Shown one piece after another: positions 25,095-53,403 of a DNA stretch of 64,000 nucleotides. Both the position numbers and the translations under genes were made by a program. This DNA is from Marinomonas communis (GTDB taxonomy: Bacteria; Pseudomonadota; Gammaproteobacteria; Pseudomonadales; Marinomonadaceae). The notes under the pieces are model-generated. The model had not been told where the DNA came from, searched no databases, and saw only the letters and a program-made list of their open reading frames with translations. The stretch covers positions 62,001 through 126,000 of the forward strand of contig NZ_SNZA01000003.1 in assembly GCF_004363305.1 (NCBI RefSeq), read 5' to 3'. Position 1 is the first letter of the stretch. Every line of letters starts with the position of its first letter.

Positions 25095-25288
25095 GTAGGA
25101 CCGCGGTTCCCGCGGAATTTGGTATGCGTTTGCGGTGCTGTTCCCTCGCGCAGCGAGGTCCTACAAGGTGGGGATGTTTGTAGGACCTCGGTCTCCGCGG
25201 GATTTGGTTTTCGTTTGCGGTGCTGTTCCCTCGCGCAGCGAGGTCCTACAAGGCGGGGATGTTTGTTGGACCGCGGTCCCTACGGGAA
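25095..25288. repeat. REP cluster A (two paired units plus one degenerate)
   Basis: Five REP-like hairpins: GTAGGACCGCGG-type at 25095, an inverted TCCCTCGC...TCCTAC at 25142-25164, GTAGGACCTCGG-type at 25180, a second inverted copy at 25227-25249, and a decayed GTTGGACC copy at 25265-25288. They fill the gap between convergent dtd and tatC, and the last ends 3 bp from the tatC stop. They belong to the same family as the array around the RAYT gene at 51 kb. Confidence 0.85.
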
Positions 25289-36243: not shown

Positions 36244-36462
36244 TTTCCCGCGGAAACCGCGGTCCTACGATTTGTCAAAACTGAGCTCTGTAGGACTGCG
36301 CTGCGCGCAGGAACAAGTTTTTGCTGGCACGGAAAGCCTATTTCCCGCGGAAACCGCGGTCCTACGATTTGTTAAAACTGAGCTCTGTAGGACTGCGCTG
36401 CGCGCAGGAACAAGTTTTTGCAGGCACGGAAAGTCTATTTCCCGCGGAAACCGCGGTCCTAC
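36244..36462. repeat. REP cluster B (97-bp period)
   Basis: Five hairpins alternate: inverted CCGCGG-type at 36244-36268, 36341-36365 and 36438-36462, and direct GTAGGACTGCGC-type at 36290-36313 and 36387-36410. The unit repeats every 97 bp. Compared with the array at 51 kb the direct element has a different stem (CTGCGC/GCGCAG) and a different spacer, so this is a separate sub-family. Confidence 0.88.
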
Positions 36463-43618: not shown

Positions 43619-43682
43619 TTCCCGCGCAAAGCTCGGTCCTACAGCGCTGGATGGTTTTGTAGGACTTCGCTGTGCGAAGGAA
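43619..43682. repeat. REP cluster C (one head-to-head pair)
   Basis: An inverted element (43619-43642, ending GGTCCTAC, with a partly decayed stem) faces a direct element GTAGGACTTCGCTGTGCGAAGG (43659-43682) whose CTTCGC/GCGAAG stem is perfect. It lies between convergent yggX and the FliL-like gene. Confidence 0.8.
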
Positions 43683-48351: not shown

Positions 48352-50514
48352 ATGACGAATACAGAAAATACTATTTTAAATACCCTATCTAAAGAGTATT
48401 CCATCTCATCTAATACTGCTCAAAAAATTGTAGCCTTATTTGAAGAAGGGGCAACGGTGCCATTTGTCGCTCGTTATCGAAAAGAAGTAACGGGTGGAAT
48501 GCTAGATGAAACATTACGCAGTTTTTATGATCGTTTACGCTATTTAGAAGAACTGGAAAAGCGCCGTCATAGCATTATCGATTCATTAAAAGGTCACCCA
48601 GACGCTTCGCCTTCGGTATTGAGAGCACTACAGAATGCGGCCACAAAAAGTGAATTAGAAGATCTCTATGCACCTTTTAAGAAGTCGCGTAAAACCAAAG
48701 CAGATATAGCTGAAGAAAAAGGACTGTTTCCATTCGCTGTATGTCTATGGCAGGAAGGGCAAGCACAGGCAGAGAAACGGTTTCAGCGCTTTCAGGCAGA
48801 CTTTAAAGCAGCGATGAGTTTTGCTGAGGCGTTAGAGGGGGCTGGTGATATTATCCTTGAGCGGCTTGCTCGAAATGTCATGACTTTGCAGCAAGGTAAA
48901 ACCTTAGTCAGAAAAGACGGGCAGCTTTTAAGTAAGGTGATGCGAGGGAAAAAAGAAGCGGGAGAAAAGTTTCAAGACTACTTTGATTTTGCTGAACCGA
49001 TTAAAAAATGTCCGCCTCATCGTTTGTTAGCGCTTTTTCGCGGCAAAAAAGAAAGCATTTTAAAACTTTCTATCGAGCTTGAAGAGGGCATGCCTTATCA
49101 ATTAAGTGCTCCAATTTATCTAACGCCTTTTGGGTTTCCAGAGTTAAAAGAACGAACACCCAGCAAAGAAAAGCAAGCCTGGTTAGCGAAAGCTTGGCAA
49201 GAGAAAATCTTACCTAAGATAGAAAGTGATCTATTAAACGAACTGAAAGAGTTTGCTGAAGCAGGAGCCATTGATGTTTTTCAATCCAATCTAAAAGATC
49301 TGCTAATGGCCGCACCGGCTGGAGCAAAACGTACTATTGGATTAGATCCAGGTTTTCGTAATGGGGTTAAATGGGCGGCAATTGATGAGCAGGGAGCATT
49401 ATTAGAGTTCGGTGTTGTGTATCCACATGCGCCACAAAATAAACGTAATGAAGCTATCGCCATATTATCAAAAGTAATTCAAAAGCATGGGATCGAATGG
49501 TTGGTAATTGGCAATGGCACCGCCTCGCGGGAAACTGAAGCCTTGGCGAAGCAGATGATTTCAGAGCAACAATTGGCTTGTCGCTCGGTCATTGTTTCTG
49601 AGGCCGGCGCTTCTGTGTACTCGGCATCGTCTGTCGCGATTCAAGAATTCCCAAATTTGGATGTCACCATTCGCGGCGCGATCTCCATTGCCCGTCGTTT
49701 TCAAGACCCTCTTGCGGAGCTGGTTAAAATCGACCCCCAAGCCATTGGGGTGGGGCAATATCAGCATGATGTTAAAGCCAATCGCCTTAGCGAAGCTCTG
49801 GGCGCAGTGGTTGAAGACTGTGTGAACGCAGTGGGCGTGGACGTGAACTTAGCGTCAGTATCCCTTCTTACCTATGTATCGGGCTTAACGGAGCGATTAG
49901 CGCAAAACATCATTGCCTTGCGTGAGCAATTAGGAGGCTTCACCAACCGAAGTCAGTTGAAGAAAGTAAAAGGTATCGGCGATAAAGCGTTTGAGCAATG
50001 TGCCGGCTTCTTACGAATTCGTGGCGGCAACGAAGCACTAGATGCATCGGCTGTCCATCCTGAATCCTATGACCTAGTCAAAAGCCTAGCCGCAAAAGTG
50101 AACAAAGAGATCTCCTCTTTAATTGGCAATCCAGCTGCCTTGAGTCAACTCAGCACAGCGTCTGTTGCAACCGAACAAAATGCTTTTACAGTGAAAGACA
50201 TCTTACAGGAGCTTGCCAAGCCAGGCCGCGATCCTCGACCAGAGTTCAAATATGCCCGGTTTGATGACACCGTTGAAAAGATCGAAGACCTTCAGCCAGA
50301 CATGATCCTTGAAGGCGTCGTCACCAACGTTGCCGCCTTCGGCGCATTCGTCGACATTGGCGTACACCAAGATGGCTTAATACACATCTCACAACTGGCC
50401 GACCGCTTCGTCAAAGACCCACGAGAAGAAGTACGCGTAGGCGAAGTCGTCAAAGTCAAAGTCTTAGAAGTCGACGCCAAACGCAAACGCATCGGGTTAA
50501 AACGAATTTCGTAG
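48352..50514 (+). CDS. tex: Transcription accessory protein Tex
   Basis: A 720-residue nucleic-acid-binding protein conserved in bacteria: N-terminal helical region (TVPFVARYRKEVTGGMLDE), a YqgF-like RNase fold (TIGLDPGFRNGVKWAAID), helix-hairpin-helix motifs (NRSQLKKVKGIGDKAFEQCAG) and a C-terminal S1 domain (GVVTNVAAFGAFVDIGVHQDGLIHISQL). It stops right after the S1 domain, without the low-complexity tail that makes many homologues about 770 residues. Third codon positions change from A/T-rich in the first third to C-rich in the last third. The 222-bp gap to hns is AT-rich. The REP array starts 8 bp after the stop. Confidence 0.95.
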   Translation: MTNTENTILNTLSKEYSISSNTAQKIVALFEEGATVPFVARYRKEVTGGMLDETLRSFYDRLRYLEELEKRRHSIIDSLKGHPDASPSVLRALQNAATKSELEDLYAPFKKSRKTKADIAEEKGLFPFAVCLWQEGQAQAEKRFQRFQADFKAAMSFAEALEGAGDIILERLARNVMTLQQGKTLVRKDGQLLSKVMRGKKEAGEKFQDYFDFAEPIKKCPPHRLLALFRGKKESILKLSIELEEGMPYQLSAPIYLTPFGFPELKERTPSKEKQAWLAKAWQEKILPKIESDLLNELKEFAEAGAIDVFQSNLKDLLMAAPAGAKRTIGLDPGFRNGVKWAAIDEQGALLEFGVVYPHAPQNKRNEAIAILSKVIQKHGIEWLVIGNGTASRETEALAKQMISEQQLACRSVIVSEAGASVYSASSVAIQEFPNLDVTIRGAISIARRFQDPLAELVKIDPQAIGVGQYQHDVKANRLSEALGAVVEDCVNAVGVDVNLASVSLLTYVSGLTERLAQNIIALREQLGGFTNRSQLKKVKGIGDKAFEQCAGFLRIRGGNEALDASAVHPESYDLVKSLAAKVNKEISSLIGNPAALSQLSTASVATEQNAFTVKDILQELAKPGRDPRPEFKYARFDDTVEKIEDLQPDMILEGVVTNVAAFGAFVDIGVHQDGLIHISQLADRFVKDPREEVRVGEVVKVKVLEVDAKRKRIGLKRIS

Positions 50515-50522
50515 AATAGCCC

Positions 50523-51003
50523 TGTAGGACCTCGCTGCGCGAGGGAACAGCATTGCACTCTCAAACCAAATCCCGCGGAAACCGCGGTCCTACATTTTTT
50601 CCACTGTAGGACCTCGCTGCGCGAGGGAGCAGCATTGCACTCCCAAACCAAATCCCGCGGAAACCGCGGTCCTACATTCTGCCTTTGTAGGACCTCGCTG
50701 CGCGAGGGAACAGCATTGCACTCTCAAACCAAATCCCGCGGAAACCGCGGTCCTACATTTTTTCCACTGTAGGACCTCGCTGCGCGAGGGAGCAGCATTG
50801 CAATCCCAAACCAAATCCCGCGGAAACCGCGGTCCTACATTTTTTCCACTGTAGGACCTCGCTGCGCGAGGGAGCAGCATTGCGCTCTCAAACCAAATCC
50901 CGCGGAAACCGCGGTCCTACATTTTTTTCCACTGTAGGACCTCGCTGCGCGAGGGAGCAGCATTGCAATCCCAAACCAAATCCTGCGGAAACCGCGGTCC
51001 TAC
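50523..51003. repeat. REP array D, six paired units upstream of the RAYT gene
   Basis: Six near-identical units of 70-71 bp at 50523, 50606, 50687, 50769, 50851 and 50934 repeat every 81-83 bp. Each begins GTAGGACCTCGCTGCGCGAGG (stem CCTCGC/GCGAGG), has a spacer containing CAGCATTGCA and CAAACCAAAT, and ends with the inverted second element CCGCGGAAACCGCGGTCCTAC. Inter-unit spacers are short (for example ATTTTTTCCACT). This is a BIME array: paired REP elements facing out with GTAG at both ends. Confidence 0.93.
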
Positions 51004-51048
51004 GATATGATAAGCTTTACAACTAACTTCAAATTACATGGAGGTAAT

Positions 51049-51477
51049 ATGAAAGGTTATTCACAGCTACGCAAAGGTCGTATATCAAACACCTCAACGA
51101 TTTATCATTTAACGTTCGCTACTATGAACCGAACCCCATATTTTGGAGACTTTTATCGCGCTAGAGCAATGGTAAAGGCGTTAAAATATTGTGATGACCA
51201 AGAATGGTCTAAAACTGTTGCTTTTATTGTGATGCCGGACCATGTTCATTGGCTCGTGCAGCCATTTTCGAAAGAAATATCTGAGCTTGTCAGAGTAGTA
51301 AAAGAGTTTACGTGCAAGCATCACCTAGTTAAGTGGCAACGTAATTTCTATGACAGGGGAATGCGCTCTAATGAAGAAACGGTCGAAACAGCACGGTACA
51401 TTATAGCCAACCCTAAAAGAGCGAAAATCGTTCACCATGTTGGTCAATATAGCCATTGGGATTGCATATTCTTGTAG
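51049..51477 (+). CDS. REP-associated tyrosine transposase (RAYT)
   Basis: A 142-residue Y1/HUH transposase related to IS200/IS605 TnpA. The HUH motif is HVH (His65, His67) in VMPDHVHWLVQ, and the catalytic tyrosine is probably Tyr117 in ARYIIANPKRAKIV. Such proteins bind and nick REP hairpins next to a GTAG tetranucleotide and are thought to spread them. The gene has no IS ends of its own but is flanked on both sides by GTAG-headed REP pairs. The ATG at 51049 has a strong GGAGG site; a start 14 codons upstream is less likely. Base composition is more AT-rich than its surroundings. Confidence 0.93.
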   Translation: MKGYSQLRKGRISNTSTIYHLTFATMNRTPYFGDFYRARAMVKALKYCDDQEWSKTVAFIVMPDHVHWLVQPFSKEISELVRVVKEFTCKHHLVKWQRNFYDRGMRSNEETVETARYIIANPKRAKIVHHVGQYSHWDCIFL

Positions 51478-51489
51478 CAATAAACCACT

Positions 51490-51636
51490 GTAGGACCTCG
51501 CTGCGCGAGGGAGCATTGCACCCCAAACAAAATCCCGCGGAAACCGCGGTCCTACATTCTGCCTTTGTAGGACCTCGCTGCGCGAGGGAACAGCATTGCA
51601 TTCCCAAACCAAATCCCGCGGAAACCGCGGTCCTAC
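51490..51636. repeat. REP array D continued, two paired units downstream of the RAYT gene
   Basis: Units at 51490-51555 (66 bp, short by a few spacer bases) and 51567-51636 (70 bp) have the same orientation and sequence as the six upstream. They lie between the RAYT stop and the end of the convergent lysR gene. Confidence 0.92.
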
Positions 51637-51645
51637 AATGACAGG

Positions 51646-52545
51646 TTATTTATGGGCGCTGCACTGCGCGCAGGATTGTTGTAATAGCTCAACAAACAAG
51701 CGTGTGGCGGGCCCTGTGCGTTCGCCTTTACCGAAAATGGCGTACATATGAAAATTACGCTCACCGCCAGACTCTAATGTTAGACGTTTGAGACGACCAT
51801 TTTCTAAATCCTGCATAAGATCGGCTTTCGGCAGCCAAGCGAAGCCTATCCCTGAAGCAACCACTTCCAAAGCCGATTGCACGCTGGAAACGGTCCAACG
51901 ACGATCGGCCCCAAGCCAGCCTTCGTCCCGTGAGTTGCTGCCAGAATCACGGATGACTACTTGTAGCTCTTGTTTAAGGCGTTCGTTGCTAATCGGTCCA
52001 TCTTCACGACAAAGCACATGATTTGACGCGGCTACCGCAATCATTTCTACATCCACTATCGGGTCAGCTAAGTAGCCCTTTGGCACGATGCCGCTAAGTA
52101 CGAGGTCAGGCGAGCCTTCAGCCAATACTTCAACAGCGCCACTTAATACCTCTTCGCGCAGTTGTACTAAAGTGCCTTGGCTTTGTGGCTCAAAAGCTTT
52201 CAATGCTCGCAATAGTGCTGGTGTCGGGAAGGCTTCATCTACTACCAACTCAATCTCAGGCTCCCAGCCTTGGCCAAGGGTGTGCGCTAGCTCCTCAAGA
52301 TCAATGGCTTCTTGAAGTAGATGCCGAGACCGTCTCAGTAATACTTCGCCACGTTCCGTTAACTTAGCTTTACGCCCATCAATGGTAAGCAACGGGTAGC
52401 CTAACTGTTCCTGCAGCTTTGCCACAGTGTAGCTGATCGATGATTGGCTTTTATGGAGGGCTTCCGCTGCCTGCGCAAAGCCACCTTTATCTACCACAGC
52501 CTGTAATACACGCCATTGTTCCAGTGTCACTCTTGGAGCTTTCAT
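51646..52545 (-). CDS. LysR-family regulator, divergent from azoR
   Basis: A 299-residue protein with an N-terminal helix-turn-helix (about 5-65, GGFAQAAEALHKSQSSISYTVAKL) and an effector-binding domain. The start of the domain, VTLEQWRVLQAVVDKGGFA, is common among marine gammaproteobacterial LysR proteins. It is transcribed away from azoR with a 163-bp intergenic region, the classic arrangement for a LysR protein controlling its neighbour, so it probably regulates azoR. AAGGA precedes the ATG. Confidence 0.92.
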   Translation of the reverse strand: MKAPRVTLEQWRVLQAVVDKGGFAQAAEALHKSQSSISYTVAKLQEQLGYPLLTIDGRKAKLTERGEVLLRRSRHLLQEAIDLEELAHTLGQGWEPEIELVVDEAFPTPALLRALKAFEPQSQGTLVQLREEVLSGAVEVLAEGSPDLVLSGIVPKGYLADPIVDVEMIAVAASNHVLCREDGPISNERLKQELQVVIRDSGSNSRDEGWLGADRRWTVSSVQSALEVVASGIGFAWLPKADLMQDLENGRLKRLTLESGGERNFHMYAIFGKGERTGPATRLFVELLQQSCAQCSAHK

Positions 52546-53333: not shown

Positions 53334-53403
53334 GTAGGACCTCGCTGCGCGAGGGAGCTGCATCGCAACCCCAAACCAAATCCCGCGGAAACCGCGGTCC
53401 TAC
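53334..53403. repeat. REP unit E (single pair)
   Basis: One 70-bp unit of the array D type (GTAGGACCTCGC... to ...CCGCGGTCCTAC), with minor spacer changes, lies between convergent azoR and the beta-CASP gene. It ends 2 bp before the latter's stop codon. Confidence 0.92.

Follow-up and report, generated by a model that had tools for sequence, protein, structure and literature searches.

A single RAYT (TnpAREP) gene of Marinomonas communis, with hairpin repeats (REPs) on either side that bear GTAG tags and are arranged as inverted pairs with the tags outward, very probably forms a REPtron, that is, one RAYT together with cognate REPs that it would recognise, cut and spread, in a row that would have grown by tandem duplication. 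The gene, the repeats, the pairing of their stems, their copy number, their co-occurrence with the RAYT and the matching of RAYT and REP lineages are established here. REP-RAYT systems of this kind are already published, including examples from Marinomonas and the concentration of REPs near the gene, and the M. communis locus adds a good new case to a known type of domesticated mobile system without founding another type. What it offers is a set of three related species in which the same site is occupied, rebuilt or emptied, matched lineages of RAYT and REP, and a local cluster whose age can be judged against the divergence of genes; it also calls into question the view, taken in the literature, that a RAYT with REPs close by has arrived recently.

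The window is the whole stretch of 64,000 nucleotides that was analysed, and its positions are those of contig C3 of the M. communis genome (G000) minus 62000. Comparisons between genomes cover 48 Marinomonas genomes, M. communis included. The M. communis RAYT protein was searched against 35 genus members, its own genome among them, and the 13 genomes G056-G068 were scanned with the RAYT family model, some also with the RAYT of a relative, instead. The nearest named relatives by protein identity are M. aquimarina CECT 5080 (G003, 79%) and M. ostreistagni USM7 (G015, 62%). The features at the locus are as follows, with the evidence in brackets.

48352..50514, plus strand: tex, upstream neighbour, outside the system (protein family match)
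50523..51003, plus strand: upstream array of six tandem REPINs, copies 1-3 at 50524-50593, 50606-50675 and 50687-50756, copies 4-6 at 50769-50838, 50851-50920 and 50934-51003 (direct reading and repeat tools)
50524..50546, plus strand: REP type Y, GTAG-GA-CCTCGC-TGC-GCGAGG-GA, first of eight (structural scan; fold)
50571..50593, minus strand: REP type Z, GTAG-GA-CCGCGG-TTT-CCGCGG-GA, first of eight (structural scan; fold)
51049..51477, plus strand: RAYT (TnpAREP) gene (NCBIfam NF047646, Pfam Y1_Tnp, PDB profile match, protein search)
51489..51637, plus strand: downstream REPIN pair with a spacing of 77 bp and a first copy of 66 bp, copies 7-8 at 51490-51555 and 51567-51636 (direct reading and repeat tools)
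51646..52545, minus strand: LysR-type regulator, downstream neighbour, convergent with tex and RAYT (protein family match)

The RAYT reading frame has 429 nt and encodes 142 amino acids, with a Shine-Dalgarno-like GGAGG at 51040-51044 ahead of the 142-codon start and a leader that is common to M. communis and M. aquimarina. A sequence-only reading of this DNA had described the product as a HUH/Y1 transposase with an HVH motif and a probable catalytic Tyr117, and this description holds: HVH lies at residues 65-67, Tyr117 within YIIANPKRA, and H65, H67 and Y117 are invariant across 14 aligned sequences, the M. communis RAYT included, so that by alignment Y117 is the probable catalytic tyrosine. 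The protein scores 100.6 bits with NCBIfam NF047646 (REP_Tyr_transpos, cut-off 80) and 31.3 bits with Pfam Y1_Tnp (cut-off 23). As a single sequence it found no PDB match with phmmer at E 0.001; a search with a 14-sequence profile returned TnpArep 4er8 as top match (E 2.4e-14), followed by other transposases of the same fold. The alignment to 4er8 includes the HUH and Tyr regions and stops at 4er8 residue 134 of 165. In a fold search all 20 matches at E<=0.001 were transposases of the RAYT fold (4er8 at rank 8), which backs the central domain only, since the underlying model, built from a three-sequence alignment, is weak (mean pLDDT 59, with residues 1-15 and 100-142, Tyr117 included, below 50). 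Protein search found the RAYT as a single copy in the M. communis genome, and three weaker matches to the family model, two on C1 and one on C6, all score below the cut-off. Could the gene instead belong to an ordinary IS200/IS605 insertion sequence, the ends of which are repeated by chance? Such an element would have the same HUH/Y1 fold, but the RAYT reaches only 27.3 bits with the IS200/IS605 transposase model NF033573 (cut-off 55), a single gene copy stands against 72 REPs, and the gene occupies the same chromosomal site in M. aquimarina; this reading, which we consider extremely improbable, was set aside on the missed cut-off.

Published criteria for TnpAREPs of group 3 / subclass 2.5 are the lack of a C-terminal tail, REPs with short perfectly paired stems and a GTAG at most 2 nt away (PMC8266576, PMC6006769). 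The M. communis protein has no C-terminal tail in comparison with 4er8 and its REPs have 6-bp stems with a 2-nt gap to the GTAG, and by these published criteria it is classed as this type. Between M. communis and M. aquimarina pN of the RAYT is 0.100 and pS 0.614; the gene is intact and, judged by these values, held by purifying selection, and a RAYT that is active or was so recently is plausible on the same grounds.

All eight REPINs could be read directly, six upstream and two downstream as in the sequence-only reading, in identical orientation: the GTAG tags point outward at either end, the plus strand carries the CCTCGC-stem REP and the minus strand the CCGCGG-stem REP. The regular period of 81-83 bp given there applies to the six upstream copies (start-to-start spacing 82, 81, 82, 82 and 83) and not to the downstream pair, and the unit length of 70 bp to all copies except copy 7. 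Near-identity of the copies, also claimed there, is borne out by pairwise identities of 92-100% with gaps left out (mean 96%; copies 1 and 3 are the same). The Y and Z REPs of a unit are separated by 24 nt (by 20 nt in copy 7), and the Z stem of copy 6 has one mismatch. The window contains 26 copies of GTAGGACC, as compared to a mean of 0.66 and a largest value of 3 in 100 shuffles, and a scan by structure recognised 50 REPs within the 172 kb around the RAYT versus 0.05 per mononucleotide shuffle (20 shuffles). As a single strand a REPIN folds into two hairpins closed by a terminal TGTAGGA/TCCTACA stem, with z-scores of -2.8 to -3.4 for the three of the eight units that were folded, one of them on both strands. 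The dinucleotide 5' of GTAG is TT in 89 and CT in 27 of 150 REPs. Published TnpAREP relatives are described as cutting single-stranded REPs at a dinucleotide selected by GTAG, which is CT and, for Mb, also CA (PMC8266576), and since TT prevails here, the cut site of this RAYT is not readable from the sequence. Seven of the eight Z REPs are terminator-like on the minus strand, which is the strand of the LysR gene (50573-51630), copy 6 being absent from the list. An Rfam RNA and a defence system were set aside as identities, as the window holds no RNA match at Rfam gathering scores and no PADLOC match at E 0.001.

Further REPs lie elsewhere in the window, none of them mentioned in the sequence-only reading.

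25095..25249, strand not assigned: two REPINs of the array family (structural scan)
36246..36462, strand not assigned: array of Z REPs and CTGCGC REPs with a period of 97 bp (common to M. ostreistagni)
43620..43681, strand not assigned: two diverged REPs with tags inward (structural scan and site comparison)
53334..53403, plus strand: isolated REPIN of the array family (orthologous place in M. ostreistagni, C3:65983)

Outside the window, three solo Y REPs of M. communis (C1:754767-754793, C1:756601-756627 and C4:137044-137071; L051, L050 and L054) match the REPIN unit over 27-28 nt and have a common CCTAG-containing flank opposite the tag side; they are possibly the ends of another small element.

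How closely are such repeats tied to the RAYT across the genus? Among the 35 genus members searched, a RAYT with at least 50% identity was found only in M. communis, M. ostreistagni and M. aquimarina. A covariance model, trained on REPs of these three genomes and of G029, counted 72, 75 and 64 REPs in the three carriers, respectively, 13 in G029, 11 in G060, 7 in G059, 4 in G014 and none in 41 of the 48 genomes scanned, counts that are lower bounds given strict filters and 150 candidates scored per genome. Repeats can also interrupt contigs assembled from short reads, and one contig of M. ostreistagni stops exactly at the final base of a REP. In G014 and G029 the 35-member protein search found no match to the M. 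communis RAYT, and the best scores with the RAYT family model were below the cut-off in all four relatives (G059 72.2, G060 62.0, G014 74.2 and G029 30.6 bits). A strict REPIN pattern occurs in three of the 48 genomes (18, 8 and 3 copies; controls 0), and head-to-head REPINs with any stem number 20 in M. communis, 16 and 7 in the other carriers and one in G029, with none in 44 of the 48 genomes and one in a control (G065). The sequence-only reading had proposed a genome-wide count, here the 72 REPs of M. communis against one RAYT gene, and had named similar REP numbers in relatives without the RAYT as the finding that would speak against it; compared across species and not strains, the numbers are 64-75 with the gene and 0-13 without, which did not refute it. 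The three carriers are close kin, and co-occurrence of RAYT and REPs is not independent of this kinship.

The stems themselves covary. In a set of rows picked with pairing required, 97% of 180 stem cells are paired as compared to 67% after shuffling, and 42 cells versus 12 in shuffled sets are changed on both sides, at all six positions (30 distinct rows, pairing required). With the pairing requirement dropped, 33 distinct hairpins of 45 REPINs are 91% Watson-Crick paired versus 66% in shuffled sets, the maximum of 500 being 74%. Stems also differ between RAYT lineages. The RAYT of M. ostreistagni (62% identical) sits elsewhere, at C3:102455, where the REPs that flank it are of the GTAGGA-ACCCGC and GTAGGA-GCTTGC types, and CCTCGC/CCGCGG REPINs are still found at other places of this genome. 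M. aquimarina has three RAYTs of the same clade, one at the tex site with CCTCGC/CCGCGG-like REPs alongside, one at C1:398307 (50% identical) with GGGGTA/GGGCTG REPs and one at C10:60679 with GTAC-tagged repeats. Six other Marinomonas contain RAYTs of a separate clade, 34-37% identical to the M. communis RAYT in the five aligned, and these RAYTs are flanked by GTAGGT hairpins whose stems are short and whose loops are mostly TTTA. Judged from these neighbourhoods, related RAYT lineages carry differently sequenced REPs, with the RAYT lineage matching the REP stem. In most of the 48 genomes a generic TTTA-loop pattern hardly exceeds its control, if at all, and it supports no more than the presence of many TTTA-loop REPs in a few genomes. 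For 13 of the 14 RAYT family loci L074-L087 and for all of L098-L102 no GTAG hairpin was found within the available flanks. The proposal of a RAYT with amplified cognate GTAG REPs thus gains support from the family cut-off, the PDB match, the genome-wide copies, the co-occurrence and the lineage matching.

It could be imagined that ordinary tandem duplication and gene conversion built the array and that the RAYT merely happens to lie inside it. The array is a clean tandem, copy number at a site shared between species, 207 kb on C3, differs (2 units in M. communis and 8 in M. ostreistagni) as is typical of unequal recombination, and tandem growth and loss of REPINs have been described for E. 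coli (PMC8049555). However, copies on several contigs need more than local duplication, REP copy number is tied to the presence of the RAYT and stems change with the RAYT lineage. As an account of the whole system such passive amplification is very unlikely; it probably explains how the row grew, but not how the repeats spread. For the REPtron, by analogy with related proteins, the RAYT very probably recognises folded REPs on single-stranded DNA, and Tyr117 would cut beside the GTAG guide and then rejoin the strand, as described for TnpAREP of E. coli, S. maltophilia and Marinomonas MWYL1 (PMC8266576). REPINs could thereby be moved or copied to other intergenic places, and the local row would grow and be homogenised by tandem duplication, as its sequence suggests.

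The site between tex and LysR has a history of its own. Of 30 tex loci examined, 29 have a LysR or flavodoxin-fold gene, usually both, next to tex, and in another Marinomonas group this gene pair is inverted relative to tex. M. ostreistagni is the sister of M. communis in the tex tree (100/99), and its tex-LysR gap of about 100 bp contains no RAYT and one decayed REPIN, the right half of which matches copy 8 of the window; in the simplest reading of these sequences RAYT and row were lost by recombination between flanking REPINs. M. aquimarina has a RAYT at the same site with a REPIN row of its own, mean identity being 91% within this row, 96% within that of M. communis and 84% between the two. 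In G059, G060, G058 and G029 there is no RAYT at the tex site and no REP by eye in the gap. As the tex tree groups M. aquimarina with G059, several losses or one transfer are needed, and pS for M. communis and M. aquimarina, 0.614 for the RAYT and thus below the 0.764 for tex, leaves room for transfer of the RAYT. Downstream of tex is a recurrent RAYT site: G000, G003, G002, G030, G005, G001 and G007 each have a RAYT over the family cut-off there, at most 2.5 kb from tex, those of G002 and G030 being too distant to match the M. communis RAYT by protein search.

A position between the convergent tex and LysR genes raises the question whether the hairpins end or insulate transcription and the RAYT has been domesticated for a host function. 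The seven terminator-like sites on the minus strand are all Z REPs and compare to a shuffle mean of 2.2 on both strands, and the gene is present as a single copy under purifying selection. On the other hand, the terminator scan only matches a consensus, M. ostreistagni has tex and LysR intact without the RAYT and without all but one decayed REPIN, and G059, G060, G058 and G029 also do without a RAYT here. We regard such a host role as unlikely.

M. communis REP sites at 87, 98, 115, 187, 207, 210 and 216 kb of C3 have REPs at the same place in M. ostreistagni, the 210-kb site also in M. aquimarina and the 216-kb site also in G029. Since tex of M. communis and M. ostreistagni differs at 75% of synonymous sites, these shared sites look old; nucleotide identity along the region varies between 64 and 96%. 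By this comparison part of the local cluster is older than a species split, a new observation at odds with the published reading of recent arrival. The recent tandem amplification proposed from the sequence therefore applies to the array, which is more uniform within itself than in relation to M. aquimarina, and not to the cluster, several sites of which are shared with other species.

Head-to-head REPINs lie mostly near the gene. In M. communis 17 of the 20 are on C3:87-216 kb, within about 105 kb of the RAYT, the other three being on C2, in an assembly of unordered contigs. Among hand-listed paired-REP loci, with the RAYT's own excluded and one tag-inward pair (105.6 kb) included, nine of ten are at most 102.8 kb from the RAYT, in 5.3% of the genome (clustering probability 3e-11). 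With solo REPs added 10 of 20 loci are near the RAYT (1e-8 for 19 loci, leaving out the REP at C2:151.9 kb). Both probabilities are indicative only, given the hand-made list and a width set from the data. Among the covariance-model matches listed, 40 of 54 M. communis REPs (72 in all) are on C3:87-216 kb, and 29 of 45 in M. ostreistagni (75 in all) are on its C3, the others being on other contigs. Strict locality is weakened by solo REPs and REPs with other stems, which are dispersed in M. communis and still more so in M. ostreistagni. Concentration of REPs near the RAYT was described for Marinomonas sp. MWYL1, where it was read as recent arrival (PMC8266576), and for Thauera after horizontal transfer (PMC2817692). 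In M. communis the old shared sites argue against recent arrival as its source. REPINs that are still mostly within about 105 kb, in a cluster shared between species with tex near synonymous saturation, lead to the tentative and rather doubtful suggestion that this RAYT clade spreads whole REPINs over short range intrinsically, and that one member in addition changed its tag from GTAG to the self-complementary GTAC. At the place matching M. communis C3:190.0 kb, M. ostreistagni and M. aquimarina have REPINs that are absent in M. communis. A 13-nt sequence that occurs once in M. communis (C3:189998-190015) has near-copies in M. ostreistagni (C3:159656-160030), and these enclose three REPIN units plus a truncated one. 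The difference could be due to loss in M. communis or to separate insertions.

The system resembles several known ones. The REPtrons Ma and Mb of MWYL1, from the same genus, likewise consist of a TnpAREP gene with cognate GTAG REPs near it, and Mb is described as a member of group 3 in which the stems are short and perfect and start two bases after GTAG; unlike Mb with its 5-bp stems and TTTA loop, M. communis has 6-bp stems, 3-nt loops and two stem types per unit (PMC8266576). The published description of REPMb agrees with the TTTA-loop hairpins of the separate clade in six Marinomonas (PMC8266576). For Pseudomonas, GTAGGA- or GTGGGA-headed short hairpins in inverted doublets (in SBW25 with a peak at 71 bp), REPIN clusters in tandem by RAYTs, one REP class per RAYT, and loss and class switching have been described, albeit with 1,053 such sequences in extragenic space of SBW25 as compared to about 20 head-to-head REPINs in M. 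communis (PMC3116915, PMC3686654). GTAG, two unpaired bases, a short stem, a conserved tail and dimers with GTAG outside also characterise the GTAG-1 REP family (PMC3733652), a paper that does not name Marinomonas in its main text. E. coli TnpAREP 4er8, the best solved relative by profile, aligns in the HUH and Tyr regions, but belongs to group 2, has 165 residues with an extra stretch past 134, and its REPs are described as having a bulge (PMC8266576), unlike those of M. communis.

Our survey of the literature, which covered mainly the main texts of open papers, returned only PMC8266576 on Marinomonas REPINs and, among the matches listed for RAYTs and GTAC, that paper as the one on the subject by title; GTAC is absent from the main texts of PMC3733652 and PMC6006769. 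As an engineered tag mutant GTAC was described as cut by TnpAMb at GA and GT and as abolishing cutting by TnpASm (PMC8266576). In M. aquimarina C10:60512-61253 (L159) GTAC-tagged REPs lie on both sides of a RAYT that belongs to the same clade and is 51% identical, and neighbouring units share one palindromic TCGTACGA tag. Judged by its flanking repeats this is a natural change of guide tag, and it lends itself to testing, in a natural system, if cutting is guided by the tag. At 34 RAYT loci a scan for strict hairpins found at least two with GTAG in 17, at least two with GTGG in 8 and at least two with GTAC in none, a scan that is uninformative on GTAC rarity as it missed the known GTAC locus L025 with its imperfect stems. 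A strict GTAC unit pattern occurs 50 times in M. aquimarina, six times with other stems in G014, twice in M. ostreistagni, once in G060 and in none of 44 of the 48 genomes (controls 0). The M. aquimarina GTAC arrays at C22:52.3-53.1, C1:345.9-346.5 and C1:327.6-328 kb lie at the places of the M. communis GTAG REPs at 105.6, 187.6 and 210 kb, as if REPIN-prone intergenic places were reused by different REP families.
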